A stretch of 64,000 bases of DNA from Abditibacteriota bacterium (GTDB lineage Bacteria; Armatimonadota; UBA5829), in NCBI GenBank assembly GCA_017552965.1, contig JAFZNQ010000115.1:62001-126000 (forward strand). Reading direction: 5' to 3'. The notes beneath the pieces are model-generated. The model worked only from the letters and a program-made list of their open reading frames with translations. It was not told where the DNA came from and did not search any database. Numbering within the stretch: position 1 is the stretch's first letter; the number at the start of each line of letters is the position of its first letter. Positions 16,394 through 33,530 of this stretch are shown here, in pieces. The translations under genes and the position numbers were made by a program.

Positions 16394-17086
16394 CTACTCT
16401 GCTCTCGGGTCGATGACCTTGGCGGCATCGGCAAAACGGCCGTAGGTGCCGGTGAACTTTTTCAGCGCTTCGTTGGCATCCATACCCTTCTTGATGGCCT
16501 CCAGCATGGGACCCACCTTGACAAACTCGTAGCCTATGACCTCGCTGTTTGCGTCAAGAGCGATCCTGGAAACATAGCCCTCCGCCATTTCCAGATAGCG
16601 GGGACCCTTGGCCAGGGTGCCGTACATGGTGCCCACCTGGCTTCTGAGACCCTTGCCCAGGTCCTCCAGACCGGCGCCTATGGTCAGGCCGCCCTCGGAA
16701 AAAGCGGACTGGGTCCTGCCGTAAACTATCTGCAGGAACAGCTCTCTCATGGCCGTATTGATGGCGTCGCAGACCAGGTCTGTGTTCAGGGCTTCCAGCA
16801 GGGTCTTTCCGGGCAGTATCTCCGACGCCATGGCGGCGGAATGGGTCATGCCGGAGCAGCCTATGGTCTCCACCAGCGCTTCCTGGATGATACCGTCCTT
16901 CACGTTAAGGGTCAGCTTGCAGGCGCCCTGCTGAGGCGCGCACCACCCTATGCCGTGGGTCAGACCGGAGATATCGCTGATCTCCTTTGCCTGGACCCAT
17001 TTGCCCTCTTCGGGAATAGGAGCAGGTCCGTGATTGCAGCCCTTGGTTACGGGACACATGACTTGCACTTCATGGCTATATTCCAT
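16394..17086 (-). CDS. NifU/IscU-like iron-sulfur scaffold protein
   Basis: A 230-aa protein with an IscU/NifU-N-like core. Candidate ligand cysteines lie in GWCAPQQGAC, ETIGCSGMTH and DLVCDAIN, and an extra Cys pair sits in the N-terminus (MCPVTKGCNHG). This is the variant scaffold that pairs with GGGtGRT proteins, longer than canonical IscU (about 130 aa). A strong AAGGAGAG ribosome site and a near-consensus promoter at 17139-17167 precede it. Function as a cluster scaffold is inferred from family. Confidence 0.85.
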   Translation of the reverse strand: MEYSHEVQVMCPVTKGCNHGPAPIPEEGKWVQAKEISDISGLTHGIGWCAPQQGACKLTLNVKDGIIQEALVETIGCSGMTHSAAMASEILPGKTLLEALNTDLVCDAINTAMRELFLQIVYGRTQSAFSEGGLTIGAGLEDLGKGLRSQVGTMYGTLAKGPRYLEMAEGYVSRIALDANSEVIGYEFVKVGPMLEAIKKGMDANEALKKFTGTYGRFADAAKVIDPRAE

Positions 17087-17138
17087 ACAATTCTCTCCTT
17101 ATCAGAATAAATAGTCACCAGACATATATACTATTATA

Positions 17139-17167
17139 ATTATACTACATATCGCCGGTTTTGGCAA
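17139..17167 (-). promoter_or_regulatory. Promoter of the NifU-like/GGGtGRT unit
   Basis: The -35 TTGCCA (17167-17162) and the -10 TATAAT (17144-17139) are separated by 17 nt, giving 11 of 12 consensus bases. The core GTAGTATAATTATA is shared exactly with the promoter before the PASTA kinase gene. Confidence 0.8.
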
Positions 17168-17179
17168 ATCTGCGGGACA

Positions 17180-17206
17180 AAAAAGGCCTGCCGCCGAAGC
17201 GGCAGG
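17180..17206 (-). terminator. Terminator after htrA-like gene
   Basis: An 8-bp GC stem (CCTGCCGC/GCGGCAGG) with a TTCG loop on the minus strand is followed by TTTTTT. This is a classical intrinsic terminator closing the kinase-rib-HtrA operon. Confidence 0.85.
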
Positions 17207-17223
17207 TCCCTAAAGTCTCAATG

Positions 17224-18465
<1,242 letters not shown>

Positions 18466-18499
18466 TTTATATAGTCTCCGTGAATGATCTTGGTGTGTG

Positions 18500-19204
18500 T
18501 CAAAGCCCGGTTCCGTACAAAGCGTTCAGGACCGCAGGCACCGTGACCAGCAGCGAACCGGCAGGTCCGGGATGGATCATGTCAGGGACCAGATCTATAT
18601 AGGTCTTGGGGTCCAGGTCCAGCAGCTCCTTCCACTCGGGGAAGGTGTCTATGAGCCGGAACTTGTTTTCCCGGGCGATCCGGCGGAATTCCTCATAATA
18701 GCTGAGGTAGTCGGGCCGGCGCTGCAAATGCACGTCCATCATAGGATTGGTGACCATGATGATGATCTCGCATTTTCTGTTGTGCTTTTTGATGCGGCCG
18801 ATCATGTTCTCCATGTTGGCCCGCGACTTGGCCACGTCTGTCTGGTAGTCCAGAAAGGCGTCGTTGACAGCAAATTCGAGGATCACCAGATCCGGGTCGT
18901 GGGCCAGGACTCTTTCGTCCAGATTGTCCACTCCCCAGCCGGACCACATGGCGCTTTTTGCGCCGTTGATGACCCGGACCTTGTCACCGTATTTGTCGGT
19001 GAGCTTCGTCCTTATGAGATCCACCCAGCCGCCCGTCTCCGTAAGAGAGGTGCCGTAGGTGACCATAGTCCGGGTCTTGCCCTTTTCCAGATCCCTGATA
19101 AAAGCAGTCTTGTCGGCTGCGGCTGCCTGCATGACGCAGACAGCCAGGAAAAAGACCGACAACATAAGCTTTGCGCTGACGAGCATTGAACTTGTGTTTT
19201 TCAT
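18500..19204 (-). CDS. SGNH/GDSL-family hydrolase, exported
   Basis: A 234-aa esterase-like protein with a signal peptide (residues 1-29, ending QAAAA). Block I is YGTSLTETGGW with the catalytic Ser. Block III is LEFAVNDAF with the oxyanion Asn. The Asp-x-x-His pair is DMIHPGPAG near the C-terminus. It probably removes acyl groups from a carbohydrate or other envelope ester. It lies between the riboflavin genes and HtrA, and a link to either is not evident. Confidence 0.82.
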   Translation of the reverse strand: MKNTSSMLVSAKLMLSVFFLAVCVMQAAAADKTAFIRDLEKGKTRTMVTYGTSLTETGGWVDLIRTKLTDKYGDKVRVINGAKSAMWSGWGVDNLDERVLAHDPDLVILEFAVNDAFLDYQTDVAKSRANMENMIGRIKKHNRKCEIIIMVTNPMMDVHLQRRPDYLSYYEEFRRIARENKFRLIDTFPEWKELLDLDPKTYIDLVPDMIHPGPAGSLLVTVPAVLNALYGTGL

Positions 19205-19245
19205 TTTATATACGCTCCCATGGGACGCAATAGTTCCCGTATTTT

Positions 19246-19716
19246 TTATTTTATTTTGCTTACCAGATCTGCCATTTCCAGGGCTGCCATAGCCGCGTCA
19301 AAGCCCTTGTTGCCTGCCTTGGTCCCGGCACGCTCCACGGCCTGCTCTATGGTGTCCGAGGTCACCACGCCGAAGATGACGGGCACGCCGGTTTTGGCGG
19401 AAGCGGCGGCTATACCCTTGGCGGTCTCCTGACACACCAGATCGTAGTGGGAGGTGGCGCCCCGGATGACCGCGCCGAGACATATGACCGCGTCATACTG
19501 TCCCGACTCCGCCAGCCTGAGAGCACAAAGAGGCAGCTCAAAGGCTCCCGGGACCCGGACCACCGTCACGTTTTCCTCCGGAGCTCCGTGACGCGTCAAG
19601 GCGTCCAGAGCGCCGGCAAGCAGCTTGGAGGTGATAAAATCGTTGAATCGGCTGACTACTATGGCAAATTGTTTTTGCCCGGCTTCATAGCCGCCTTCGA
19701 TAAGCTTGTAAGACAT
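19246..19716 (-). CDS. ribH: 6,7-dimethyl-8-ribityllumazine synthase
   Basis: A 156-aa enzyme that condenses 5-amino-6-ribitylamino-uracil with dihydroxybutanone phosphate. Family motifs are visible: VSRFNDFIT at the N-terminus, VPGAFELPL, and [23 protein letters not shown] with the catalytic His. Length is normal. It follows ribBA by 15 nt and completes the riboflavin set in this operon. Confidence 0.97.
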
Positions 19717-19731
19717 ATTATTCTCCTCTGG

Positions 19732-20928
19732 TTATAACAGATGTCCCATCCGTGTTTTTTTCGTTGCCAGATATTCGGCGTTCTCGCTCCTGGGCCGCAC
19801 CACCAGAGGCACCCTCTCGGTGATCTCCAGATCGTAGCCCCCCAGAGCCGCGTATTTGCCCGGGTTGTTGGTCATGAGCCGCAGCTTGCGGATGCCCAGC
19901 TCCCGGATGACCTGGGCCCCCAGGGAATAATCCCTCATGTCTGCGGGAAAGCCCAGCATCAGATTGGCGTCCACCGTGTCGGCGCCGTGCTCCTGCAGGT
20001 GATAGGCCTTCAGCTTGTTCACCAGGCCTATGCCCCTGCCCTCGTGATGTGGTATGTAGATCAGGGCTCCCCTGCCCTCCCGGGATATCATTTCCAGAGA
20101 GAGCCTCAGCTGCTCCCCGCAGTCGCACCTGTGGGACCCCAGCACGTCGCCCGTAAAGCAGGCGGAATGCATCCGCACCAGACAGGGCTCCCCATCGGAC
20201 ACGCAGCCCATGGTCAGGGCTATATAGGGCCCTGCCTCCACGTCCGTCTCGTAGGCGGAAGCGGTAAATACGCCGTAGTCATTGGGCAGCTCGCACTCGG
20301 CCACCTTGTGGACCAGACACTCGTGCTGCCTGCGGTATTTGATCAGCTCGGCTATGGTGGTCATCTTCAGGGAATACTTCTCCGCCAGCTTTTCCAGCTG
20401 GGGCACCCGGGCCATGGTCCCGTCCTCATTGAGTATCTCGCACAGGACTCCGGTCTCCTTCAGGCCGGCGATCCTGCAGAGGTCCACCACCGCCTCGGTG
20501 TGACCGGCTCTCACCAGCACGCCTCCGGGGGCTGCCTTCAGAGGATGGATGTGTCCGGGTCTGGCCAGATCCTCCGGCCGGGTGTCTTCGGAGGCCATGG
20601 CGTTGATGGTCCTGGCCCGGTCGGCGGCGGATATGCCCGTAGTGGTGCCCGCCAGGGCGTCCACGCTGACCGTAAAGGCCGTGGAATGCCGGGCCGTATT
20701 GTGAGACACCATCATGGGCAGAGCCAGCTCCTCCAGCCTTTTGGGAGTGGCGGGAGTGCAGATGAGCCCCCGGCCCGCCTTGGTGAGAAAATTCACGTCC
20801 TCGGCGGTGGTGAACTGAGCCGCCATGACGAAGTCACCTTCGTTCTCCCTGTCCTCATCGTCCACCACTATTATCATACGTCCCCGGCGCAGCTCCTCCG
20901 CCGCCTCGGGAATAGTCGCAAATCTCAT
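19732..20928 (-). CDS. ribBA: Bifunctional DHBP synthase / GTP cyclohydrolase II
   Basis: A 398-aa fusion protein that makes both precursors of riboflavin. The N-terminal half (about 1-200) is 3,4-dihydroxy-2-butanone-4-phosphate synthase, with VVDDEDRENEGDFV and the RPGHIHPL segment. The C-terminal half is GTP cyclohydrolase II, with Zn-binding cysteines in CFTGDVLGSHRCDCGEQ and the YIPHHEGRGIGL motif. Both halves look intact. The stop of ribE overlaps its ATG region by 4 nt. Confidence 0.97.
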   Translation of the reverse strand: MRFATIPEAAEELRRGRMIIVVDDEDRENEGDFVMAAQFTTAEDVNFLTKAGRGLICTPATPKRLEELALPMMVSHNTARHSTAFTVSVDALAGTTTGISAADRARTINAMASEDTRPEDLARPGHIHPLKAAPGGVLVRAGHTEAVVDLCRIAGLKETGVLCEILNEDGTMARVPQLEKLAEKYSLKMTTIAELIKYRRQHECLVHKVAECELPNDYGVFTASAYETDVEAGPYIALTMGCVSDGEPCLVRMHSACFTGDVLGSHRCDCGEQLRLSLEMISREGRGALIYIPHHEGRGIGLVNKLKAYHLQEHGADTVDANLMLGFPADMRDYSLGAQVIRELGIRKLRLMTNNPGKYAALGGYDLEITERVPLVVRPRSENAEYLATKKTRMGHLL

Positions 20929-21563
20929 ATATCTACCTGCATAAAGCCGCTCTTGAGCAGCGCTTCCTTCAAGGGCTCGGCCGTGTCCCGTCCCAACAGC
21001 TTCTCGGTATATTTGGCCAGTATATCCGTCTCCAGATTCATCCTGTCCCCGGCCTTTTTCTCCCCCAGGGTGGTATTGGCCAGGGTGTGGGGGATCACCG
21101 CCACGGTAAAGCCGCTGCCCGACACCCGGGCCACGGTCAGGGATACGCCGTCCAGGGCCACGGAGCCCTTGGGGACGATATACCGCAGCAGGGGCCCGGG
21201 ACAGACAAAGTCTATCTCCCGGGAGCCGCCTATCTCCCTGACGGAGCCCACCGTCGCCAGTCCGTCCACGTGTCCGGACACGAAGTGGCCTCCCAGAGGT
21301 CTGGACAGGGTCAGAGCTGTCTCCAGATTCACCCTCTCCCCCTTTTTGAGCAAGCCGAGAGCGGTGCGGCTCACGGTCTCTCTCACCGCGTCAAACCCCA
21401 GAGCGCCGCCGTCGGCGTCCGTCAGGGTCAGACACACTCCGTTTACAGCCACGGAGTCTCCCGTCTTCACACCGGAGAGTCCGGCTGCTATCCTTATCCT
21501 GTACACCGGGCCGGGCGTCACGCTCAGCACGGCGCCGATCGCTTCGGTCAATCCTGTAAACAT
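20925..21563 (-). CDS. ribE: Riboflavin synthase alpha chain
   Basis: A 212-aa enzyme that dismutates two lumazine molecules to riboflavin. It has two lumazine-binding barrels: MFTGLTEAIGAV with DSVAVNGVCLT in the first half, and GHFVSGHVDGLATV with GSVALDGVSLTVA in the second. The gene overlaps ribD by 16 nt and ribBA by 4 nt. The name ribE is used in the Gram-negative-style sense for this enzyme. Confidence 0.96.
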   Translation of the reverse strand: MFTGLTEAIGAVLSVTPGPVYRIRIAAGLSGVKTGDSVAVNGVCLTLTDADGGALGFDAVRETVSRTALGLLKKGERVNLETALTLSRPLGGHFVSGHVDGLATVGSVREIGGSREIDFVCPGPLLRYIVPKGSVALDGVSLTVARVSGSGFTVAVIPHTLANTTLGEKKAGDRMNLETDILAKYTEKLLGRDTAEPLKEALLKSGFMQVDI

Positions 21564-22612
21564 GGGGCGACCTTCACCAATATATCTTCTCCTATGCGGC
21601 GCACTTCCTTCACTGTGACAGAGTGGGCGTCCTCTATGAGGACCGCCGTATCTCCTCCGCCCTGCCCTACCGCCGCGCTGTCATTCAGGAGCTTGGGGGC
21701 GTAGAAAAACAGTCCCTCGTCCCAGAGCCCCTCTTTGACAAAGCTGCCTGCGGTCCGGGCGCCGCCCTCCACCAGCAGGGACATTATGCCTATGTCGGCC
21801 AATATGGCCAGCAGCTCCCTCAGCCTGCCCTCCCGGTAGGTGATCAGGCAATAGCCCTCCCGGTCCTCCGTCTTGTTGGCATCTCCGGGCCGGGCAAATA
21901 TCACGGGCCCGCCGGGAGCCCGGAATATGTTGTGCTCCCGGGTCTCCGGGATGGCGGAGGTAAGGACTATCCTGCAGGGCTGCTTTACCCGGGCGCCTCC
22001 CGTTCTGGCGGAAAGGGACGGGTCGTCCCGGCGGAAGGTATTGCCTCCCACCAGCACTCCGTCGCATTTGCTGCGCAGCCGGTGGACGAGACGCCGGGAC
22101 CTCTCGGAGGATATCCACTTCGAATCCCCCGAGGCAGCGGCAGTCTTGCCGTCCAGTGTCATGGCCTGCTTCAGTATCACAAAGGGCCTGTGAAGGGTCC
22201 TGTGGGTGATGTATTCCCTGTTCAGGGCCCGGCACTCTTCCTCCAGCACGCCGCACACGGTCTCAATGCCTGCCCGGCGCAGGGTCTCTATGCCCCCTCC
22301 CGACACCTTGCTGTCCGGGTCCTGCATGCCTATGAACACCCTCCTGACTCCCGCTTTGATGAGAGCGTCGGCGCAGGGCGGGGTCTTGCCGTAGTGACAG
22401 CAGGGCTCCAGAGTGACATAGACGTCGGCGCCCCGGGCGTCGGGACAGCCGGCCAGAGCGTTGATCTCGGCGTGGGCCGCGCCGGCCCGCCGGTGGGCTC
22501 CCCGGCCCAGTATGGCTCCGTCCCGGACTATGACTGCCCCCACCCGGGGATTGGGTGAAGGATCGTATTTGGAGGCCAGACGAATGGCCAGACGCATATA
22601 TTCGGTGTTCAT
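21548..22612 (-). CDS. ribD: Bifunctional riboflavin deaminase/reductase RibD
   Basis: A 354-aa enzyme carrying out steps 2 and 3 of riboflavin synthesis. The N-terminal cytidine-deaminase-like domain has Zn ligands His47 (HAE) and Cys71/Cys80 (PCCHYGKTPPC). The C-terminal reductase begins near residue 145 (RPFVILKQAMTLDGK) and includes WISSERSRRLVHRLR. I placed the start at the ATG overlapping the preceding small membrane gene (ATGA). The frame is open further upstream, but that extension is unrelated to RibD and antiparallel to nothing useful. Confidence 0.95.
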   Translation of the reverse strand: MNTEYMRLAIRLASKYDPSPNPRVGAVIVRDGAILGRGAHRRAGAAHAEINALAGCPDARGADVYVTLEPCCHYGKTPPCADALIKAGVRRVFIGMQDPDSKVSGGGIETLRRAGIETVCGVLEEECRALNREYITHRTLHRPFVILKQAMTLDGKTAAASGDSKWISSERSRRLVHRLRSKCDGVLVGGNTFRRDDPSLSARTGGARVKQPCRIVLTSAIPETREHNIFRAPGGPVIFARPGDANKTEDREGYCLITYREGRLRELLAILADIGIMSLLVEGGARTAGSFVKEGLWDEGLFFYAPKLLNDSAAVGQGGGDTAVLIEDAHSVTVKEVRRIGEDILVKVAPCLQD

Positions 22613-22908
22613 CTTCTGCGAAATTCGGCTCTCGTCAGCAGCAGATCCCACACCAGAAAGGCCGTCATCACCAGCATCAGCGCCAGCACCGCGGCCAGAT
22701 ATCCCAGCATGGCCCTCACTCCCAGAACGGTCCGGAGATAGGGAAAGACTGCGAACAGCCCGAAGCACAGCTCGGTGGCGGCAAACAGGGAGGTGCGTAT
22801 GAACTTGCGCAGAGTTCCTGCCAGAGAGGGGTCCTTTTTCCACATGACCAGCTCCCGCGCAAAAAACGCCGCCACCACCAGCATGCAGAGGGACAGCAGG
22901 ACTATCAT
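22609..22908 (-). CDS. Small three-helix membrane protein of unknown function
   Basis: A 99-aa protein with three hydrophobic segments (about residues 1-22, 38-60, 64-90), a Lys/Arg-rich first loop and a basic tail (EFRRR). No family is recognised. It is probably real: its ATG overlaps the rpe stop by 4 nt and its stop overlaps the ribD start by 4 nt, so it is embedded in a tightly coupled operon. A riboflavin or precursor transporter is conceivable, but it does not resemble RibU or other known ones. Confidence 0.68.
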   Translation of the reverse strand: MIVLLSLCMLVVAAFFARELVMWKKDPSLAGTLRKFIRTSLFAATELCFGLFAVFPYLRTVLGVRAMLGYLAAVLALMLVMTAFLVWDLLLTRAEFRRR

Positions 22909-23564
22909 CCTCTCAGAGACTCAATGGCGTCCCGTCTGGACAGAGTCTTGTTGGCAAAGACGTAATTGCCGGCCACCAGCATATTGGCTCCCGCGCTGAT
23001 GACCTGCTTTGCGGTCACGTTGTCTATGCCTCCGTCCACGGTGATATCCAGATCCAGGCCCCGGCTGTCGGCCATACGTCTGACAGCCTCTATCTTTTTC
23101 AGCATGGAGTCTATGAATTTCTGGCCGCCGAAGCCCGGGTTCACGGTCATGACCAGCACCGAGTCCAGATCCTCCAGCACGTATTCCAGAGTATTCTCGT
23201 TGGTGTGGGGGTTGAGAGCCACTCCTGCCTTTTTGCCTGTGGCCCTGATATTCTGCACGGTCCGGTGCAGATGGACGCAGGCCTCTTCGTGGACGGTGAT
23301 CTCCCTGACCAGGTCGGGCTTGGCAAACTGCTCTATGTATTTGTCCGGATCCTCTATCATGAGATGCACGTAAAAAGGCAGGCTGCTGACGGCGGCGCAG
23401 GCGGCCAGAAAGCCGGGGCCAAAGGTGATATTGGGCACGAAATGCCCGTCCATCACGTCGCAGTGCACTGCGTCGGCTCCCGCCGTCTCGATGCTCTTCA
23501 GCTCCTTGTCCATACAGGCAAAATCCGCGCTCAGTATGGACGGCATGATGATGATGTCTTTCAT
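22905..23564 (-). CDS. rpe: Ribulose-phosphate 3-epimerase
   Basis: A 219-aa TIM-barrel enzyme that interconverts ribulose-5-phosphate and xylulose-5-phosphate. Motifs include PSILSADFACM, HCDVMDGHFVPNITFGP, HLMIEDP, MTVNPGFGGQKFI and ITVDGGID, covering the metal ligands and both catalytic Asp residues. Ribulose-5-phosphate is also the substrate of RibB, which gives a metabolic reason for its position before the rib genes. Confidence 0.97.
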   Translation of the reverse strand: MKDIIIMPSILSADFACMDKELKSIETAGADAVHCDVMDGHFVPNITFGPGFLAACAAVSSLPFYVHLMIEDPDKYIEQFAKPDLVREITVHEEACVHLHRTVQNIRATGKKAGVALNPHTNENTLEYVLEDLDSVLVMTVNPGFGGQKFIDSMLKKIEAVRRMADSRGLDLDITVDGGIDNVTAKQVISAGANMLVAGNYVFANKTLSRRDAIESLRG

Positions 23565-23573
23565 GTATCGTTC

Positions 23574-25115
23574 CTATTCTATGAGTATATCTATTTCGTG
23601 ATCGCTGTCGGGCAGCAGCTCGGGGCCCTGGTCCTCAGGCCCTTCCCCGTCGTCCCCGGAAGGCTCCGGAGCCTCCCGGCGGCGGTAGGGCTCGGTCTCC
23701 GGCTCCTCTCTGTCAAACCTGTGAGCTATGTCTATCCCGTTGGATACCACCAGATCCACCCCGGTGTCCTTGGACACGGACAGGGCCGCCTCCGGATTGG
23801 AGGATATGACGTAGTCCTCCGGCACCGTGTCCGAATACTGGCCTGTGACGCCGTTCACCTTCAGACCGGCCCTCACTATCATTTCCGCTGCGTCGCCCTT
23901 GTGCTTGCCCACCACGTCGGGCATGATGACGAATTCGTTGCCCAGGCTGGCCTGGATGGTCACGGTCTCGCCCTTTTTCAGCTTGCGGCCGGCCCCGGGG
24001 GTCTGATGGATCACCAGTCCCTCCTTGAATTCCTCCGAATAGGTGGGATCGTTGCGCAGCACGAAGAAGCCCTCTCTTTCCAGGGTGTTCACCGCTTCGG
24101 ACTCGCTCATGCCTATGACGTCGGGCACCACCTGCTTGCCCCGGCTCACCAGATAAAAGGTGACGCAGGCGCTCAGGAGCAGCACCGCGAGGATCAGCAG
24201 CACGCCTCCCAGCATGCCGCCGGAGCCCTTGGTCTCCCTGGGATGCTCCACTTCCACGCTGGGCTTGGGCTCGGCAAAGCCGCCCTCGGCCCGGCCGGTC
24301 TTGATGCAGTTGGATATCTTCTGAGAGTAGATGCTGGCCGTCTCTATCCGGTCTTCGGGTCTCTTGGCCAGAGATCTTTTCACCAGAGCCGATATGTTTT
24401 CCGGTATCTCATGGTCGTAGCTTCTGGGGTCCGCGGGCTCGGTCTCCAGTATCCTGGAGGCGGTCTCTATGGAGGTGGCCCCGGTAAAGGGCACGTGCCC
24501 CGTGAGCATCCTGTAATACACGGCTCCCGCGGCGTAGATGTCCGACTGTTCCGCAGGCAGACCGCCCTGGATCAGCTCGGGGCTCTGAAAATATATGGTG
24601 TATTTGTCCAGAGTCTCCTTGGCCCGGGGGCTGGCGGCCAGACCGTCCCGTCTGCCGAAGCCCCTGACCTTGACGGAGCCGTCCTCGGTGATGAGCACGT
24701 CGTCGTCGGTCAGGTCACCGTGGCACAGGCCCGCTATATGGGCCTTGTCCAGAGTGGCCAGCACGTTGACTATGATCTCCGAGGCCTTGACGCAGGACAG
24801 CTTTTTTTCTCCGGCCAGCAGCTCTGCCAGGCTCTTGCCCCGCACGGGCTCATACACGAAAAACGGCTCCGCATCCTCCAGATTGGTCTCCAGCAGAGCC
24901 AGAGTCGCGGGGTGATCCAGCTGGGCGCATTCCTCCGCCCCCTTTGCATACCCCTCCGCAAAAGCCCGGTCCTCGGCCCAGCAGGGCTTCATGACGTAGA
25001 GGGACACCTGACGGTCGCCAATCTTGTCCACGGCGCTGTAAACGCTGAAGATGAGAGAATCGGACTCCTTTGCCAGTATCTGGAATCTGTTGTTGTAGAG
25101 CGTGTTCTCAGCCAT
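23574..25115 (-). CDS. PASTA-domain serine/threonine kinase-like protein, probably catalytically degenerate
   Basis: A 513-aa protein with a cytoplasmic kinase fold (about 10-265), one transmembrane helix near 310-335, two extracytoplasmic PASTA repeats (about 337-470) and an acidic, Pro-rich tail. The start at 25115 is set by AAAGGAGG six bases upstream; an earlier ATG lies before this site. Kinase landmarks are partly lost. The VAIK-type Lys is present (YVMK, Lys43) and the catalytic-loop Asp134 remains in HGDLTDDD, but the loop Asn is Asp139 and the DFG Asp is Gly152 (GFG). SPE of the APE motif is kept. Such changes usually abolish Mg-ATP catalysis. PASTA domains bind peptidoglycan or lipid II in the PknB/PrkC family. 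It heads the rpe-rib operon. Confidence 0.85.
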   Translation of the reverse strand: MAENTLYNNRFQILAKESDSLIFSVYSAVDKIGDRQVSLYVMKPCWAEDRAFAEGYAKGAEECAQLDHPATLALLETNLEDAEPFFVYEPVRGKSLAELLAGEKKLSCVKASEIIVNVLATLDKAHIAGLCHGDLTDDDVLITEDGSVKVRGFGRRDGLAASPRAKETLDKYTIYFQSPELIQGGLPAEQSDIYAAGAVYYRMLTGHVPFTGATSIETASRILETEPADPRSYDHEIPENISALVKRSLAKRPEDRIETASIYSQKISNCIKTGRAEGGFAEPKPSVEVEHPRETKGSGGMLGGVLLILAVLLLSACVTFYLVSRGKQVVPDVIGMSESEAVNTLEREGFFVLRNDPTYSEEFKEGLVIHQTPGAGRKLKKGETVTIQASLGNEFVIMPDVVGKHKGDAAEMIVRAGLKVNGVTGQYSDTVPEDYVISSNPEAALSVSKDTGVDLVVSNGIDIAHRFDREEPETEPYRRREAPEPSGDDGEGPEDQGPELLPDSDHEIDILIE

Positions 25116-25147
25116 GTGAGGCCTCCTTTGAGAAAACATACAATATA

Positions 25148-25176
25148 ATTATACTACACGCGGGCGCGAAAAACAA
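25148..25176 (-). promoter_or_regulatory. Promoter of the PASTA kinase-rib operon
   Basis: The -10 TATAAT is at 25153-25148 and the -35 TTGTTT at 25176-25171, with 17-nt spacing. The -35 touches the terminator of the upstream operon. No FMN riboswitch fits in the roughly 30-nt leader. Confidence 0.72.
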
Positions 25177-25199
25177 AGCCGCAGCGCTGCTGCGGCTTT
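25170..25199 (-). terminator. Terminator after vanW gene
   Basis: The 10-bp stem AAAGCCGCAG/CTGCGGCTTT with a 5-nt loop is followed on the minus strand by GTTTTT. It closes the PQQ-propeller-to-vanW operon. Confidence 0.85.
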
Positions 25200-25210
25200 G
25201 GAGTATGCTG

Positions 25211-26086
25211 CTACTGAGCGTCCGGCGCCGGGACTTCGATGACCACGCCTTCGTCGGCGCCTTCCTCAAAGCCGATGCCCTCGTTGCCGTCTCCATCGGG
25301 ATTCACGGCCGGGGCGGGACCCTCATCGGTCCCGGGGGAGGGAGGCGTTTCCACAGCCGGAGGCGCGGCAGGCTGTCCGCCGCCGTCAGGATAGACATTG
25401 TTGTCGGTGGAGGACTTCATGGCCTTTTTTGCCGTAGTGGTGTAGGAGCTGGAAGAGATATAGTCGGTGGTCTTCACGCTCCCCGACTCCACTATCCTCT
25501 TTACCACGGCGCTTTTGCCGTTGTTTTTGAAGGAGGAGGTCACGGTGCAGCGCTTTTTGCTGTCGGCGCTGCCCCACAGAGCCACGGTCATTGTGCTGCC
25601 ATCCACGGAGGCCTTTATGACCACCGGGCTCCCCGAATTGTTTCTGAAGGAAAAATCCTGCTGGCCCCAATACACCATGGCGTCTCTGCCGGCGGGGACG
25701 TAGTCCACCATCTTGGAGTGGCTCCGGCGGCTCAGTATCTCCATGCCCGCCAGCAGCGCGGCGTTGAACAGAGTGGAGGACACCTGACAGATGCCTCCTC
25801 CCAGCTCCAGCTTTTGCTCGCCGCCCTGAAAGACGATGGCTTCCCTGTAGCCTGCCGCCGCGGTCCTCTCGCCCAGGGTCTTGTTGAAGGAAAAGACCCC
25901 TCCGGGCTGCAGCGAGGTGCCGTTCAGCTTCTTCACGGCCACCTTCAGATTGGAGGTCCTGCCCGCATTTTTGGCATTGAAGCCCGTGGTGTATCTGCCC
26001 AGACACACTCCGGGCGTATCCTGGGCCCACAGGGCTGCCGGCAGAATGAGCAGCAGAATGATGGCTAAAAGCGTATTTCTTTTCAT
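25211..26086 (-). CDS. VanW family protein (short form)
   Basis: A 291-aa exported protein with a signal peptide (residues 1-21) and a VanW domain at about 27-175: FNAKNAGRTSNLKVAV, PGGVFSFNKTLGERT and GGGICQVSSTLFNAALLAG with the family Cys. The C-terminal 90 residues are Pro/Gly/Asp-rich low complexity. VanW proteins occur in vancomycin-resistance clusters and in many envelopes, but their biochemical role is unclear. It lies 4 nt after a longer VanW paralog and probably arose by tandem duplication. Confidence 0.88.
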   Translation of the reverse strand: MKRNTLLAIILLLILPAALWAQDTPGVCLGRYTTGFNAKNAGRTSNLKVAVKKLNGTSLQPGGVFSFNKTLGERTAAAGYREAIVFQGGEQKLELGGGICQVSSTLFNAALLAGMEILSRRSHSKMVDYVPAGRDAMVYWGQQDFSFRNNSGSPVVIKASVDGSTMTVALWGSADSKKRCTVTSSFKNNGKSAVVKRIVESGSVKTTDYISSSSYTTTAKKAMKSSTDNNVYPDGGGQPAAPPAVETPPSPGTDEGPAPAVNPDGDGNEGIGFEEGADEGVVIEVPAPDAQ

Positions 26087-26090
26087 GTTC

Positions 26091-27431
26091 CTATCCGTCT
26101 ATGAGAGTGAGGTCGCCGTTGCCGTCGCCCCCGGCGGGAGGCGCAGGGGTCTCGGGCTTGGGCTGAGCCGGCTTGGGCTTTTCTGCGGGAGGCTCCTTGG
26201 GCTTGGGCCGCCTGTAGGTGCTGGAGGCTGTATAGTCCGCCTTTTTCACGCCGCCGGCGGTGACGTATCTGGTGAGGCTGGCTCCGAAGCCGCCGTTGTA
26301 TACGCTGGTGGATACGGACACTTCCTTTTTGGACCGGGAGCTGCCCCACAGCTGCATGCTGAGGGAGCCGCCGCCTATGGAGGCAAACACTGCCACCGGG
26401 TCGGGAGTGTCGTTGACAAAGCAAAAGTCCGAGGAGCCGTAGCTGACCATGGCGTCCCTGCCCAGAGGCACGTAGGCCACCTTCAGGGAGTGGCAGCGTC
26501 TCGACGTGATCTTCAGCCCGGACAGCAGCACCGCGTTGAACAGAGTGGAGGACACCTGACAGACGCCTCCGCCCATGCCTTCCACCTCTTCGCCGTCCTG
26601 AAAAATGATGGCGGTCTTGTAGCCGGTGCTGGTATCCCTGGGCCCCACTATGCCGTTGTAGGAAAAGGTCTCTCCCGGCATGAGGATGGTGCCGTTGATG
26701 GCGCCGGCGGCAGTCTTCAGATTGTGGGTCCGGGCCACCTTGCCTGCGTTGTAGTTGGTGGTAAAGGAGCCCAGACGGGTATCCACGCTCTGCAGGTCCT
26801 CGCTCTTTATCCGGGGATAATCCGCCACGTATTCCAGCTCCACTGAGCTGGCCCCGGCCTTCAGGGCGGCGCATATGGCCTCCGAGGCAGCAGCCTCGTC
26901 TATCTTTTTGCCTATGACCGCAGGCACCAGGGACACGCCCTTGCCGGTGAACACCAGCCCCGCATTCCTGGGCTTCTGGTCTATGGACCTGTTCACCTCT
27001 CTGATGTATCTGTCTATGACGCTCTTGTCTATCTTTTGCTCTATATCAAAGCTCTTGCCCAGCTTGCCGCCCTTGATGGCCAAGTATTTTGCCAGGAGCC
27101 CGCCGGAGCGGCCCAGAGCGTAGGCCTTGTCCAGAGCCGGCTCCCATTTCCAAAAGAGGCCCAGCTCATAACAGGGCTTGTGGAAGGTGGAGTCGCCTAT
27201 TTTGATGGAGAGAGGGGCAGACGAGATGGTCCTCACGTGGCTGCGGACAGCCTCTGCGGCCTCCTCCCTGGTCATGCCTCCCACGGCTACGCCGCCCACC
27301 TCCGCGTCGGGCGCCAGGCGCCCGGAGGAGGCGAACCGGCTGACCGAAAGGGACATGTGCCACGGCAGCAGAACTGCCAGACACACCAGCACCGCAGCTG
27401 CCGCTGCGACGATCTTTTTTGTCTTGTTCAT
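26091..27431 (-). CDS. VanW family protein with N-terminal YoaR-type region
   Basis: A 446-aa membrane-anchored envelope protein. It has a TM helix at residues 7-24, then a peptidoglycan-binding-4-like region (about 45-215: VGGVAVGGMTREEAAEAV and KSFDIEQKID), then a VanW domain (about 220-360: FTTNYNAGKVARTHNLKTA and GGGVCQVSSTLFNAVLLSG). A Pro/Lys-rich tail follows. This is the YoaR-like layout. The C-terminal half aligns by eye with the neighbouring short VanW protein throughout. Confidence 0.88.
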   Translation of the reverse strand: MNKTKKIVAAAAAVLVCLAVLLPWHMSLSVSRFASSGRLAPDAEVGGVAVGGMTREEAAEAVRSHVRTISSAPLSIKIGDSTFHKPCYELGLFWKWEPALDKAYALGRSGGLLAKYLAIKGGKLGKSFDIEQKIDKSVIDRYIREVNRSIDQKPRNAGLVFTGKGVSLVPAVIGKKIDEAAASEAICAALKAGASSVELEYVADYPRIKSEDLQSVDTRLGSFTTNYNAGKVARTHNLKTAAGAINGTILMPGETFSYNGIVGPRDTSTGYKTAIIFQDGEEVEGMGGGVCQVSSTLFNAVLLSGLKITSRRCHSLKVAYVPLGRDAMVSYGSSDFCFVNDTPDPVAVFASIGGGSLSMQLWGSSRSKKEVSVSTSVYNGGFGASLTRYVTAGGVKKADYTASSTYRRPKPKEPPAEKPKPAQPKPETPAPPAGGDGNGDLTLIDG

Positions 27432-27440
27432 CCCGGTCAG

Positions 27441-28850
27441 TTACTCCTTGTGCCACACGGTGCCGGTCTTGGTATCTTCGAGTATGATGCCTCTCTGTGC
27501 CAGTTGGTCTCTGATCTCGTCGGCCCTGGACCAGTTCTTTTCGGCCCGGGCCCGGTTCCTCTCTTCTATAAGGGCGTCTATCTCCCCGCTGTCCGAGGAC
27601 ACGGAGGCGGCTATGTCTTCAAAGCCCAGGCTGAGGACCCGGTCAAACCTGAAGAGCTCCTCCAGTATATTGTATTCGCCGGTCTCCGCAGCCCTGTTGA
27701 TCATCTCGTTCATCACGCCTATGGCGGCGGGCATGTTCAGGTCGTCGGAGATAGCCTCCTCGAAACGGGTGACGTATTCGCCGGTCCAGTCGGGCCTGGG
27801 GCCCTTCATCTGAACGGCCCTCATGATAAAGGCCCTGATCCTCTCATAGGCGTTGCGGGCTGCCGTAAGGGACTCGTCGGTGAACTTCAGCATGTTCCTG
27901 TAATGGGCCTGATAGGTGAAATATCTGTAGTGCACGGGCTCAAAGCCGGCGTCAATGAGAGACTGGAGCCGGAGGAAATTGCCCTCGGACTTGCTCATCT
28001 TGGCTTCGCCGTCCTTGCCCACCACCAGAAAGGCGCCGTGCATCCAGTAGTTCACGAATTTTCTGCCGGTGCAGCACTGGCTCTGGGCTATCTCGTTGGG
28101 ATGGTGCACCCACACGTGGTCCTCCCCGCCTGTGTGTATATCAAAGGTCTCCCCCAGATACTTGATGCTCATGGCGGAGCATTCTATGTGCCAGCCGGGG
28201 AAGCCCTCGCCCCAGGGAGAAGGCCATCTCATAAGGTGTTCGGCAAAGCGTCCGGTGCATTTGAACCAGACGGCAAAGTCTGCCGGGTGCCTCTTGTCCG
28301 GGTCCTCGTTGACCTCGTCCCGGGCGCCCACCACCTTGTCCTGAATGGACTGGCCGGAGAGCTCCGTGTATTCCGGAAAACGGCTGATGTCAAAATATAT
28401 GGCCTGCTCGGTCTCGTAGGCAAAGCCCTTGTCAAGCAGGGTCTTCACCATGTCCTGCATTTCCTGTATATGGTCGGTGGCCCTGCAGATCACCGTAGGG
28501 GTCATGATGTTGAGACGGCTGAGATCCTCAAAAAAGGCCTTCTCGTAAAAGTCGGCTATCTCCCTCACGTCCTTGCCCGTCCTGGCGGCCTGCCGTTCCA
28601 TCTTGTCGGCGCCGCTGTCCTGATCTCCGGTCAGGTGGCCTACGTCCGTGACGTTCATCACGTGACGCACGTCATAGCCGAAATAGATCAGGGTCTTCTT
28701 GAGAACGTCGGCAAAGATATAGGAGCGCAGGTTGCCTATATGGGCATAGTTGTACACTGTGGGTCCGCAGGAATAAATGCCTGCGCAGCCCTCCTTTATG
28801 GGGATGAACTCCTGCTTTTTTCTGCCTAAGGTATTGTAGAATCTAATCAC
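27441..28850 (-). CDS. cysS: Cysteine--tRNA ligase
   Basis: A 469-aa class I aminoacyl-tRNA synthetase charging tRNA-Cys. The HIGH box appears as AHIGNLRSY, and KMSKS as AKMSKSEGN. Zn-binding residues are visible in YSCGPTVYN and GWHIECSAM. Length is normal. It overlaps cysE by 8 nt; a cysE-cysS pair, coupling cysteine synthesis to its use, is common in bacteria. Confidence 0.98.
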
Positions 28851-29493
28851 CGTTGTTATTCTCGCTTTCCAATATTTTCAGTCTCTTTTCCATGTCCTCG
28901 AGCTTGTTGATCATGCAGCGTATCTGCTCGCCCTCGGGGTCCAGGTTCCTGCCGTGAGTGAGACGGTCTTCGTCTTCCTTTTGTTTCTGCAGCACCACTC
29001 TGCCGGGGACTCCCACCACCGAGGTATCGGCCGGCACGTCCTTCAGCACCACGGCGTTGGCCCCCACTCTCACGTTGTCGCCCAGAGTGATATTGCCCAG
29101 CACCTTGGCTCCCGCGCCTATGATCACATTGTTTCCCAGAGTGGGATGCCTCTTGGACCGGGACATACTGACGCCCCCCAGAGTGACTCCGTGGTAGAGC
29201 ACGCAGTCGTTGCCTATCTCGGCGGTCTCGCCTATGACCACTCCCATGCCGTGATCTATAAAGAGTCCGGAGCCTATGACTGCCCCCGGGTGTATCTCTA
29301 TGCCCGTCCAGAAACGGGCGGACTGGCTGATGATCCTGGCCAGGAGCTTCAGCCCGTGGACGTGAAAGAAATGGGCCGCCCTGTACCAGCACACGGCGTG
29401 AAGGCCCGCATAGGTCAGCACCTCCGGTAGGCTCCGGGCTGCCGGGTCGTTTCTGAATACGGCGGCTACGTCGCTTTTCAGGGTCCTACACAT
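28843..29493 (-). CDS. cysE: Serine O-acetyltransferase (short form)
   Basis: A 216-aa enzyme that makes O-acetylserine for cysteine synthesis. It has an N-terminal helical region, then a left-handed parallel beta-helix of hexapeptide repeats. Motifs include [25 protein letters not shown] (quoted in part: HPGAVIG and [10 protein letters not shown]) and GVTLGGVS. The ATG at 29493 is used; a TTG 12 nt upstream would add four residues. It overlaps the end of kdsB by 8 nt. The C-terminus ends in a charged coiled-coil-like segment. Confidence 0.95.
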
Positions 29494-30202
29494 CTGCCGC
29501 TTCAAATATGGCGCGCACCCGCTCCAGGTCCTCGGGGGTGTCCACGCCCATGGGCTTTTCGGCCACCACCAGAGTCCTGATGCGGCAGCCGTTTTCCAGC
29601 GCTCTCAGCTGCTCCAGGGATTCGGAGCGCTCCAGAGGCGTCCTGTCCATAGAGGGATATTTCAGCAGGAAGGAGCGCCGATAGGCATATATGCCTATAT
29701 GTCCGTAATAGGGAGCTCCCGGCTCTCTGTCGTAGGGAATGGGGCTCCGGGAAAAATACAGGGCGTTGCCCTTTTGGTCGCAGACCACCTTCACCAGGTT
29801 CGGATCGGCGGCCTCCGCCTTGCTGATGGGCACTATAAGGGTGGCCATTTCAGCATCGGAGTCCCGGAGAGAGTCCGCCAGCACCCTGATGTCCCGGGGA
29901 TCGACCAGAGGCTCGTCCCCCTGCAGATTGATCACCGTGTCGCAGTCCAGCTTTTCCGCTGCCTCGGCTATCCTGTCTGTGCCCGACCTGTGGTCCCTGC
30001 GGGTCATGATATAGGGGGCCCCGAAGGACTCAGCCGCCTCTGCCAGCTCCCGGTCGCACAGGGCCAGATACACCTCGAAGCCGGTCCGGCAGGCTCCTTC
30101 GTACACCCGTCGGATCATGGGCTTGCCGCATATATCCAGCAGAGGCTTCCCCGGAAGTCTGGTGGAATCCATCCGGGCAGGTATGATGATACAGGTCTTC
30201 AA
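29486..30202 (-). CDS. kdsB: CMP-Kdo synthetase (3-deoxy-manno-octulosonate cytidylyltransferase)
   Basis: A 238-aa enzyme that activates Kdo with CTP for lipopolysaccharide inner core synthesis. Motifs include [24 protein letters not shown] in part ([14 protein letters not shown]), [13 protein letters not shown] and [13 protein letters not shown]. It is direct evidence for a Kdo-containing LPS or lipooligosaccharide and therefore an outer membrane. It overlaps dprA by 4 nt. Confidence 0.97.
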
Positions 30203-31290
30203 GACAATACACTCCTTACAAAGCGGTTGCCGGGCACTCTTTTGACGACTCCCTTGACCTCCAGCCCGGTCAGCACCCCGGACAGCTCTTCCGTGGGGAG
30301 GCCGGTCTTTTCCGATATGGCGTAGTCGCCTATGGGAATGGTGGTGATGCAGTCAAACACGGCCTTTTCCTTCTCCGACAGGGAGTCTGCAGATGTGTCG
30401 GGAGCCAGGAGCACCGTGTAGCCCATATTAAAGGCCACGTCGTCTGCGTTTTCTATGAGAGGGCACCCGTCCTTGATAAGCAGATTGGTGCCGGAATTCT
30501 TGTCGTTGTCCGCATTGCCGGGCACCGCATATACGTCCTTGCCGCAGTCTCTGGCCAGGGCGGCGGTGATCAGGGAGCCGGACTTCACGGGGGCCTGTAT
30601 CACCAGTATAGCGTCGCACAGGCCCGCTATGATCCTGTTGCGCAGGGGGAACTTGTATCTGTCTATCCTGCTGGCGGGGTGATACTCGCTCAGGAGAGAG
30701 CCGCCGGACTCCACTATATCCATAAACAGCAGGCTGTTCTCGGGAGGATAATCCACCCCCAGGCCGCAGCCGAACACGGACCAGGTCTCGCCCTTGCCCT
30801 TCATGGAGCCCCTGTGAGCGGCGCTGTCGATGCCCCGGGCGCCGCCGCTGACTATGATAAAGCCGTTCTTGGAAAGATCCCGGGTGATGGTCTCCGCCAT
30901 GTAGAGGCCGTAATAATCGGCGTGTCTGGAGCCTACCACGGCCAGTACGGGAGCCTCGCTGTTGAGATCGGCCTTGCCCTTGACAAACAGAGCGCAGGGA
31001 GGATCGGTGATGTATTTCAGCTTTTGCGGATACTCGGGAGAGCTAAACGGAATGAGCCTGATCTGCTGGCGCTCCAGATACTTCAGATCCTTTGACACGT
31101 CCGCCTCCGTCCAGTGAAGGATCCTGTCCAGCTGTTTGGGAGACGAGGCGAACCTGTCGGCAAAAAAGGCCCTGTCCCCCATCAGCGCTTCTATATCGCA
31201 CTCAAAGCGGCACAGGATCTCAAAGGCAGTATCGGGAGCGAGCTCGCAGTGACAAAAGCGCAGCCATGCCGAAAGCTCTTGGTCGGTCAT
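30199..31290 (-). CDS. dprA: DNA processing protein DprA
   Basis: A 363-aa single-stranded-DNA-binding protein that loads RecA during natural transformation. A SAM-like helical N-terminus is followed by the Rossmann DprA/Smf fold (AVVGSRHADYYG, VSGGARGIDSAAHRG, VFGCGLGVDYPPENS). The C-terminal winged helix (DML1-type) covers about 305-363. The start codon shares one base with the stop of the upstream PQQ-type gene. Its role in competence here is not proven because no other com genes are in the window. Confidence 0.96.
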   Translation of the reverse strand: MTDQELSAWLRFCHCELAPDTAFEILCRFECDIEALMGDRAFFADRFASSPKQLDRILHWTEADVSKDLKYLERQQIRLIPFSSPEYPQKLKYITDPPCALFVKGKADLNSEAPVLAVVGSRHADYYGLYMAETITRDLSKNGFIIVSGGARGIDSAAHRGSMKGKGETWSVFGCGLGVDYPPENSLLFMDIVESGGSLLSEYHPASRIDRYKFPLRNRIIAGLCDAILVIQAPVKSGSLITAALARDCGKDVYAVPGNADNDKNSGTNLLIKDGCPLIENADDVAFNMGYTVLLAPDTSADSLSEKEKAVFDCITTIPIGDYAISEKTGLPTEELSGVLTGLEVKGVVKRVPGNRFVRSVLS

Positions 31291-33530
31291 TAGAAAGGAG
31301 GAAAGGGAGGAAACCCTTCTTCGGGGTATCCGTCAAAGGACGTATCTTCGTCGGTGTCCGTGGCCACCACGTCCACACTCATGCCGTTGTCATAAGCCAC
31401 GTAGTTGCCGTTTTCGTCATAGCCGTCCTGCAGAGAGGAGCCGCTTTCGCTCCTCGCTGAAACAGCAGAGGCAGCAGTGGTGGTGCTGCTGCCGCTGTTG
31501 TTATTTCCGGAAGTTTCTGTTTGCGAGCTGACTGCTCCGCCTTTTTTCGTCCCGGAGGACTCGGCGTCCTTCATCAGCTGGTTCAGCTGGCCTCCGTACA
31601 CGGAGCCTGTGCCTACGTCCAGATATTTCAGCGAAGTATCCGACATAGTCCTTATGGGCTGCAGGCCGGTGTCCAGATCGAAGCTGAACTCAAAATTCAG
31701 CTCGTTGCCGGCGTAGTCGCTGACAGAGAAGACAGAGGTAAAGGTCCCGGAGGGATAAGGCGAGACTACGGAGGTCTTGGGCTTGCTCAGCACGCCGTAG
31801 AAGATCTGGTTGTCCAGATCATAGACCAGCCGCACGTCATATTCGCCGCCCTGACTGTCCTCGCAGGTCAGCTTCGCGGTGGTAAAGTCCACGCCGGAGC
31901 TCTTGTCCGTCGCCGAGATCTTGAAGGTGATGGGAGGCAGAGCGGATATCTTCCGGGAATTGGTGTCGTAGCCGGGATAATAGCTCAGTATCTCGGGAGC
32001 CTTCTTGTCGGCGGCGCCCCCGTTGGACCTGACCATCAGATAGCCGTCGGCGGTGATGTAGGCCAGAGTGCCGTTATTGTAAACGGCGTTGCCCACCAGA
32101 CCGGAGGGGACGAAGGACTTGGAGTAGTTCTTCAGGATGTCCTGCAGCTCCACTTCCTCGATGCCGTCCACTATCTTGGTGTTGATAGGCTGAGACACGG
32201 CAGTCATGCCGCCGGTCATACCGGTGGTCCCCATGGTCCCTGCGGCGCCCATGGTCCCCATCATGCCGCCCATTCCCATCATGGAAGCGGTGGGAGGCGT
32301 ATAGCCGGGGATGGACACGGTGGAATTGTTCATGGTCCTGCCGGACTGGTTGGACCAGCAGATGGCGCCGGTCTCCCGATCCAGAGCAAACAGGAAGCCG
32401 CTCTTGCAGGCGCACAGCAGAACGTTGTCGGTGAGAGCTATGAGCTGAGAAATGGTCTGGCCCATGTTGTAGGGCTTTTTCCAATTCTGCTCCATCCTGC
32501 TGTTGGTGAACCTGAGGGAGTAGAGATTCTGGTTGGCAGTAGCCACGTACACGTTCTGGCCGTCGGTGACGGGAGCGCACGTGATGGTGTGGGAGAACTT
32601 CTGCATAGCGTGCTCCTTGCCGGAGCGGGTATAGACTATGACCGCCTTGTCGGTGGTGACCAGAATGTAGTCGTCGGTGATGATGGGCATAAAGCCTCTG
32701 ATGACGCCGTCGGCACCCAGCTGGAAGGTGTTGGCTCCGCTGGCCAGATCAAAGCCGTAGATGGTGTTGGTATCGGACTTGCTGATCAGCAGGTCATCCT
32801 TGATGGTGAACCCGTTGGACAGAATGGCTCTGGCGCCTGCGGAAACAGCGTTCCTGTTCTCGGCAGTGAGGGCGGGAGCAGCATCCTCGAGAGTCTCGGG
32901 ATCCAGTCTGTAGATCTTTCCGTCGCCGGCGGAGAAATACAGAATGCCGTTCTCGGCGTTGAGCATGGCCGCAGTGGTATTGGGGATGTTGCGCATCTTC
33001 AGGACTTCGCCGGTCTCCTCATCCAGAGCGTAAAGCATCTTGGTGGTGCTGAAGAACACCTTGCCGCCTTCGGCCTCGGGGACGCAGGTGATGCCGTTCT
33101 CCATGTCATTCTGAGAAGGGTACTGCCAATTGAGGCGTCCCTTGTTCTTCTCGTAGGAATACACCTTGGTGGAGGTACCCACCAGGATGCTCTTGTCTCC
33201 TATTCCGATACGCGAGGTAGCGATATTGGTCCCGTTGCCGTACTGGCCGCCGGTGGTGCCGCCTGCCACTCCGGCCACAGCCATGCCGCCTCCGGCCACA
33301 CCGCCTCCGGCCACTCCGCCGGCCATACCGCCGGTGGCGTAGGAAGAGGCAGCGGAATACTTGATCTGCCTGTCAAAAGAATATACCAGGGGCAGGTCCA
33401 GATCACCTTCCGTATAGCCGGTATTTTGCGCATTGACGGTCTGTGTCAGCACCTGCGCGTAAGCGCCGGCTGCAGACATGACGGCCACTGCGGCGATCAA
33501 CAAAATGACGCCTAAGATTGACTTCTTCAC
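31290..33530 (-). CDS. Exported PQQ/Pyrrolo-quinoline-type beta-propeller protein with Gly/Met-rich inserts
   Basis: A 746-aa secreted protein with a signal peptide at residues 1-25 (ending GAYAQ). The body has repeated propeller blades such as ILVGTSTKVYSYEKNKG, VFFSTTKMLYALDEETGEVL and LLCACKSGFLFALDRETGAI, as in PQQ_2/BamB-like domains. Two low-complexity insertions stand out: a Gly/Ala-rich stretch at about 66-95 and a Met/Gly/Thr-rich stretch near 415-450. The C-terminus is Ser/Thr rich, then acidic, ending FPPFPPF. The start is GTG with GGAGG six bases upstream. A BamB-like envelope role is possible, but the long inserts argue for a cell-surface protein. Confidence 0.75.
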   Translation of the reverse strand: MKKSILGVILLIAAVAVMSAAGAYAQVLTQTVNAQNTGYTEGDLDLPLVYSFDRQIKYSAASSYATGGMAGGVAGGGVAGGGMAVAGVAGGTTGGQYGNGTNIATSRIGIGDKSILVGTSTKVYSYEKNKGRLNWQYPSQNDMENGITCVPEAEGGKVFFSTTKMLYALDEETGEVLKMRNIPNTTAAMLNAENGILYFSAGDGKIYRLDPETLEDAAPALTAENRNAVSAGARAILSNGFTIKDDLLISKSDTNTIYGFDLASGANTFQLGADGVIRGFMPIITDDYILVTTDKAVIVYTRSGKEHAMQKFSHTITCAPVTDGQNVYVATANQNLYSLRFTNSRMEQNWKKPYNMGQTISQLIALTDNVLLCACKSGFLFALDRETGAICWSNQSGRTMNNSTVSIPGYTPPTASMMGMGGMMGTMGAAGTMGTTGMTGGMTAVSQPINTKIVDGIEEVELQDILKNYSKSFVPSGLVGNAVYNNGTLAYITADGYLMVRSNGGAADKKAPEILSYYPGYDTNSRKISALPPITFKISATDKSSGVDFTTAKLTCEDSQGGEYDVRLVYDLDNQIFYGVLSKPKTSVVSPYPSGTFTSVFSVSDYAGNELNFEFSFDLDTGLQPIRTMSDTSLKYLDVGTGSVYGGQLNQLMKDAESSGTKKGGAVSSQTETSGNNNSGSSTTTAASAVSARSESGSSLQDGYDENGNYVAYDNGMSVDVVATDTDEDTSFDGYPEEGFPPFPPF

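Follow-up and report, generated by a model that had tools for sequence, protein, structure and literature searches.

A probable PASTA pseudokinase preceding rpe and the riboflavin genes in an Abditibacteriota bacterium

PASTA kinases (PknB, PrkC, StkP and Stk1; NCBIfam family NF033483) are the textbook link between the state of the cell wall and phosphorylation, and their PASTA domains bind peptidoglycan fragments or lipid II. In Bacillus, the neighbourhood of prkC and rpe, with cpgA in the same cluster, is described in PMC6449344.

Kinase-like proteins are classed as pseudokinases when at least one of the β3 lysine, the HRD aspartate and the DFG aspartate has been lost and activity has not been demonstrated, and a 2025 review that gives this definition describes seven bacterial families: ActPs1-3, GLW, CP1, DYD and DLHK (PMC12599244). 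A term search of that review returned no PASTA-bearing pseudokinase; the word PASTA occurs there solely in the title of a reference, and Armatimonadota is not mentioned. Two other proteins are relevant because they share GFG in place of DFG. VRK3, with the motifs TRDNQG, FSLK, HGN and GFG, is reported not to bind ATP (PMC2639636); long the textbook dead kinase with HGN and GFG, it has since been claimed to be active, in 2026 (PMC13030254). CASK, in contrast, is described as an active, cation-independent kinase with an intact glycine loop and β3 lysine (PMC2639636, PMC4718504).

We analyzed a 64,000-nucleotide stretch of DNA (here called the window) from an Abditibacteriota bacterium, an uncultured member of the phylum Armatimonadota, which carries an intact open reading frame for a 513-residue PASTA "kinase" ( Table 1 ). 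The order of its parts, a kinase fold followed by a transmembrane helix and then two PASTA repeats, is that of the PASTA Ser/Thr kinases (NF033483, Stk1 family): Pfam returns one Pkinase and two PASTA matches above cut-off, and the AlphaFold2 model contains a single transmembrane helix, in agreement with the preliminary description of this locus, which had called the repeats and the helix intact. Residue numbers count from the ATG at 25115; a start at 25139 would lengthen the protein by eight residues. The window's genome is G000, the other two genomes of its genus are G001 and G002, and its family is f1; the G002 relative is about 66-67% identical to the window protein.

Table 1. Features of the pseudokinase gene, its product and the operon, in window coordinates.
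Feature	Coordinates	Strand	Basis or remark
Terminator-like hairpin between VanW gene and kinase gene, 12 pairs and T tail	25174..25200	-	
TATAAT, possible -10 of the operon promoter	25148..25153	-	By eye; no good -35, absent from promoter scan of this strand
Probable PASTA pseudokinase, 513 aa	23574..25115	-	ORF readable from 25139; ATG at 25115 matches G002 relative
Tyr40 in place of β3 (VAIK) lysine	24996..24998	-	Alignments to StkP and relatives
Gly59 in place of αC glutamate	24939..24941	-	Alignments to StkP and relatives
HGD (132-134) in place of HRD; catalytic Asp134 kept	24714..24722	-	Alignments to StkP and relatives
Asp139 in place of metal-binding loop Asn	24699..24701	-	Alignments to StkP and relatives
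GFG (152-154) in place of DFG; Arg151 and Arg155 on either side, fixed in genus	24654..24662	-	Alignments of relatives
Transmembrane helix, residues 304-323	24147..24206	-	AlphaFold2 secondary structure
PASTA repeat 1	23949..24131	-	Pfam
PASTA repeat 2	23739..23930	-	Pfam
rpe, ribulose-phosphate 3-epimerase	22905..23564	-	Pfam; starts 9 nt past kinase stop codon
99-aa ORF overlapping end of rpe	22609..22908	-	
ribD	21548..22612	-	Pfam RibD_C and deaminase; start MNTEY placed by eye
ribE, riboflavin synthase	20925..21563	-	Pfam Lum_binding, two matches
ribBA	19732..20928	-	Pfam DHBP_synthase and GTP_cyclohydro2
ribH, lumazine synthase	19246..19716	-	Pfam DMRL_synthase

The resemblance to PASTA kinases extends to sequence, fold and gene neighborhood. 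StkP is the best sequence match, and a Foldseek search of the PDB with the AlphaFold2 model (19-row alignment, mean pLDDT 84.5, 87-98 in the kinase blocks) places M. tuberculosis PknA and PknB and S. aureus PknB/Stk1 at the top, with TM-scores by target of 0.77-0.89 among the best 32 matches listed; rpe lies nearby, as it does in the Bacillus prpC-prkC-cpgA region described in PMC6449344. Unlike those kinases, the window protein has no adjacent gene for a PP2C partner, and it has two PASTA repeats only. We considered the helical activation segment of the model as a sign of inactivity and dropped it: the model of L117, a relative in which the β3 lysine and DFG are kept, shows the same helices, which are thus a trait of the group.

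Further differences lie in the active site. Residue columns were assigned from a phmmer alignment to the sequence of the StkP structure and from MAFFT alignments of relatives. Of three catalytic residues expected in a PASTA kinase, the β3 lysine, the HRD aspartate and the DFG aspartate, only the second is kept (as Asp134), the others being Tyr40 and Gly152. The preliminary description had rightly reported a kept catalytic-loop aspartate, a loop asparagine changed to aspartate (Asp139) and a DFG aspartate changed to glycine (Gly152-Phe-Gly), but its statement that the VAIK lysine is kept does not hold: the β3 column contains Tyr40, within VSLY, and the lysine that it had taken for this residue is residue 43, within VMK, three positions on. 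The losses also go beyond its list, and include the αC glutamate, the HRD arginine, the HRDxK lysine (Thr136) and the glycines of the glycine-rich loop (S18, S20 and F23). Seven catalytic features of PASTA kinases, from the β3 lysine to the DFG aspartate, are replaced, and the protein scores 285 bits against the NF033483 equivalog profile, whose cut-off is 450. Its genus relatives score 292.6 (G002) and 294 (G001), two other relatives with HG in place of HR (HG-type) 367 and 412, and the two HRD-type PASTA kinases tested from the same phylum reach 481 and 526.

The nearest described combination of changes is that of VRK3, which likewise has a degraded glycine loop, HG for HR, threonine for the HRDxK lysine, and GFG (PMC2639636). 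The two proteins are not closely related. VRK3 has neither PASTA domains nor a transmembrane helix, and it keeps the Lys-Glu pair while the human protein has lost the catalytic aspartate, the reverse of what we observe here (PMC2639636). The known bacterial pseudokinases, according to PMC12599244, are also of the Ser/Thr type and several are membrane-bound, and a DLHK example keeps the HRD aspartate and has GFG. By their descriptions, which are the basis of this comparison, the domain make-up of ActPs1-3, GLW, CP1, DYD and DLHK differs from that of the window protein. Bacterial pseudokinases are already known, but a PASTA-bearing one may lack precedent: we found none in a search, mainly of freely accessible literature, on pseudokinases and their evolution in bacteria, kinase-dead PASTA kinases, bacterial kinase families and Armatimonadota kinases.

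Tyr40, Gly59, HGD, Asp139 and GFG are common to all three genomes of the genus, and the kinase domains of G000 and G001 are just 41% identical. A sequencing error or frameshift is ruled out, since the same residues, GFG and Tyr40 among them, occur in open frames in three species. Between G000 and G001, the most conserved 12-residue stretches are the GFG segment (10/12) and then the catalytic loop (9/12), compared with a mean of 5; judged from this alignment, the broken active-site stretch is the most conserved portion of the kinase domain. The preliminary description had proposed a check of whether GFG is conserved in close homologs: GFG is present in 3/3 genus genomes, and DFG or DLG in 12/12 genomes in the rest of the family.

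The suggestion in the preliminary description that the protein is a pseudokinase is well borne out by these observations: PMC12599244 defines pseudokinases by three residues, and two of these are lost in 3/3 genus genomes while the fold is kept, the glycine loop, αC glutamate and loop asparagine are changed as well, and the kinase domain remains under purifying selection (see below). Because the Lys-Glu pair, the glycine loop and the DFG aspartate are lost, ordinary phosphotransfer is unlikely, and it is a fair inference that the protein would signal by binding. We consider it probable that the protein is a wall receptor, anchored in the membrane, with a kinase domain that has turned pseudokinase and acts by binding. 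In this proposal the lost residues, the intact fold, purifying selection, the place in the operon, the history of the family and the missing PP2C_2 match in the genus come from computation, and the lack of kinase activity, the ligand, the partner and the mechanism are what we infer. Outside the membrane, the ligand of the two PASTA repeats is probably a peptidoglycan fragment or lipid II, by analogy with the known family; PBP transpeptidases occur in all 15 genomes searched for them, so peptidoglycan is available to sense. Inside, the kinase fold would be retained without transferring phosphate, and dimerisation or clustering induced by the ligand would alter the choice of cytoplasmic partner held by the pseudokinase domain. 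The former catalytic and GFG loops are so strongly conserved as to suggest that a surface or pocket has been maintained, and these loops (HGDL..DD and VRGFGR) would be the likely contact or anion-binding surface. Some points go against a dead kinase domain: Asp134 is kept in 3/3 genus genomes, which is more than a dead enzyme needs, CASK is active with GFG, and activity has been claimed for VRK3.

The chief rival is a nucleotide or anion switch that needs no metal, in which Arg151 and Arg155, near the former DFG, would allow the pocket to bind ATP or a different nucleotide with no Mg present, and occupancy would switch the binding of a partner by the PASTA receptor. We regard this as unlikely. 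Arg151 (the DFG-1 position) and Arg155 are fixed in the genus (3/3), where the other family members have threonine and leucine (12/12), and in models of the DLHK pseudokinases arginines in the active site bind ATP, as they do in ULK4 (PMC12599244). The remainder of the pocket argues the other way: a bulky tyrosine occupies the β3 position, the glycine loop carries serine, threonine, phenylalanine or cysteine, and VRK3, whose glycine loop is also degraded, is reported not to bind ATP (PMC2639636).

It is considerably less probable that the protein is an atypical active kinase resembling CASK, in which GFG and Tyr40 are compensated and Asp134, conserved throughout the genus, catalyses slow phosphorylation. 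CASK does show that a kinase with GFG can be active independently of cations (PMC4718504), but it has the intact glycine loop and β3 lysine (PMC2639636, PMC4718504) that are replaced here (S18, S20, F23 and Tyr40), together with the αC glutamate. The glycine loop of the window protein contains no lysine either, unlike that of WNK1, where the lysine sits in this loop. A further point against this reading is that the phosphatase family PP2C_2 (PF13672) has no match in the three genus genomes and is matched in 11/12 other family genomes, where in many cases it adjoins a non-PASTA kinase with HRDIKPxN and DFG; because the genomes are drafts (84-97% complete; 91% for G001 and 84% for G002), such absences are soft.

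Other elements of phospho-signalling are also sparse in the genus. Pkinase matches number two in G000, one in G001 and two in G002, compared with 2-8 in other members of the family. In the 15 genomes searched, SpoIIE matches number one, none and one in G000, G001 and G002 and 5-12 in six other searched members of f1, and FHA matches one, none and one versus 3-10; G001 thus has no match to another Hanks kinase, a SpoIIE phosphatase or an FHA domain. The preliminary description had proposed a search for another PASTA kinase, an active one, in the window's genome. PASTA and Pkinase profile searches led us to reject it: the genome encodes one PASTA protein in all, and its one other Pkinase match is without PASTA. 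That second kinase, in G000 and G002, retains HKDLKPAN and DFG, so that with one SpoIIE and one FHA match in each, phospho-signalling is not wholly gone from these two genomes. Another genome of the family, G007, has no PP2C_2, SpoIIE or FHA match, and its PASTA kinase keeps the lysine and DFG. G007 also encodes another kinase-like protein, 677 aa long (L069, contig C106, frame from about 3095, plus strand), which looks degraded (HGD, GFA).

Selection was evaluated by comparing G000 with G002. For the kinase lobes dN/dS is 0.14 (N-lobe) and 0.16 (C-lobe); the two PASTA repeats give 0.24 and 0.22, and the whole protein 0.21. These values are rough because dS is near saturation (1.25 overall); seven neighboring genes give 0.07-0.29 (dprA, kdsB and the VanW genes 0.13-0.29). 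A decaying gene, drifting toward loss under relaxed selection and kept for now as the first gene of the rpe/rib operon, would fit the greater divergence of the kinase than of rpe (67% vs 87% identity, G000 vs G002), the length of the genus branch in the tree and the missing C-terminal β domain of its relatives, but we consider it very improbable and, on the sequences, already partly refuted, because the kinase lobes are as constrained as dprA, kdsB and the VanW genes, the frame is open in all three species and conservation is highest at the former active site.

To place the protein in its history, we surveyed 61 genomes, covering the window's own genome, its genus, family, order, class and phylum. 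The window protein has a match in 60/61 of them, and a PASTA match is present in 59/61, the exceptions being G023 and G055. We aligned 62 PASTA kinases and built trees from 61 with the catalytic columns excluded, omitting a partial sequence with HGM (G041b); for G052 and G054b, the rows that diverge most, the alignment of the N-lobe columns (glycine loop, β3 and αC) is less secure. The 61 rows fall into two types: seven HRD-type kinases with full catalytic sets, and 54 in which HG replaces HR. The αC glutamate is present in 7/7 of the former and 14/54 of the latter, and the three-residue definition (PMC12599244) identifies pseudokinases in 0/7 and 15/54, respectively. On the careful tree the pseudokinase state requires seven changes; on a quick tree, loss of the DFG aspartate takes four and loss of the β3 lysine five. 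By these counts, the HG-type clade of Armatimonadota has shed catalytic residues repeatedly.

Within f1, the αC glutamate is missing in 15/15 rows and the loop asparagine is aspartate in all 14 readable ones, while loss of the β3 lysine and the DFG aspartate is confined to the genus: the 12 other members all retain the lysine together with DFG or DLG, and they lack the genus-fixed substitutions, which include K40Y, T151R, D152G and L155R. Thus the genus has completed a decay that began in the family. Changes in the DFG motif are also seen elsewhere. In f5 (L050, L076, L087, L107 and L113, from five genomes) the rpe-linked protein has DFW in place of DFG and keeps the lysine and the loop asparagine, and in a distant family an rpe-linked PASTA kinase (L097, in G039) has acquired GFG independently with the β3 lysine kept. 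In relatives including L046 the PASTA repeats are followed by an extra β-rich domain, about 80-90 aa long, which the genus lacks and which, when L046 was checked, matched no Pfam family. A search of viral contigs for relatives found none: it gave two pattern matches, neither of which was confirmed.

These observations allow a broader reading, which we put forward tentatively, as somewhat short of an even chance: that the proteins form a clade-wide, rpe-linked family of HGD-type PASTA receptors in Armatimonadota in which phosphotransfer was lost independently and which, in this genus, would sense the wall through allosteric or anion-switched binding of a partner. Since phosphotransfer would have been lost several times with the receptor kept, the core function, on this reading, never depended on catalysis; equally tentative is that the sensor in the genus works amid almost no Ser/Thr phospho-signalling. 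With nearly all catalytic residues gone and its gene arrangement conserved in much of the phylum, the protein makes a good candidate wall sensor, one that would do without phosphorylation. With architecture and genomic place kept and the active site repeatedly dismantled, the family is a natural experiment that separates two functions: what stays under selection in the degraded members is the non-catalytic part. A single phylum offers members that look active, others that are half degraded and others that are fully degraded, a series in which to ask whether a PASTA receptor signals by scaffolding.

The genomic place is conserved in a type-specific manner. The rpe gene lies directly downstream of 44/54 HG-type genes (43 of the 52 fetched, plus the window) and of 0/7 HRD-type genes; of the remaining HG-type genes, seven are not rpe-linked, two are at a contig edge and one (G025, a contig-end locus) is unexamined. 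On the careful tree a branch with bootstrap 91 and SH-aLRT 91 has the rpe-linked rows on one side. An AU-test rejection was discounted as an artefact of grouping: three ungrouped rows (two at contig ends and one unexamined for rpe) were all counted outside the rpe-linked group, whereas at least two of them lie inside it. The kinase stop codon and the rpe start overlap by 4 nt in many genomes, and in the class ribD, ribE, ribBA, ribH and htrA are often found downstream of the kinase-rpe pair. Because prkC and rpe are also neighbors in Bacillus, the linkage is probably old, and it may be positional only.

In the window, the kinase gene does lead the riboflavin operon, as had been claimed: the hairpin isolates it from the upstream VanW gene, and rpe, the 99-aa ORF, ribD, ribE, ribBA and ribH follow. 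Downstream of the hairpin, TATAAT and AAAGGAGG were both read by eye. The further claim, that the position of the gene serves to coordinate the expression of rpe and rib genes with the state of the wall, finds no support. The gene order is identical with or without degradation of the kinase, so nothing shows that the kinase gene regulates the operon; no FMN riboswitch or other Rfam match is present in 17000-31500 at E up to 1, and the adjacency of prkC and rpe is described for Bacillus as well (PMC6449344).

The surroundings of the operon vary among relatives. The 99-aa ORF has no match in Pfam or NCBIfam, its product has by eye the appearance of a small membrane protein, and ORFs of 117-141 aa occupy its place in many relatives. 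Just upstream of the kinase gene, G000 and G002 both encode a pair of VanW-domain proteins (25211-27431, minus strand, in the window), of which one also has a peptidoglycan-binding domain. Many other members of the class have a secretin gene, aroB and a DUF362 gene in place of this pair.
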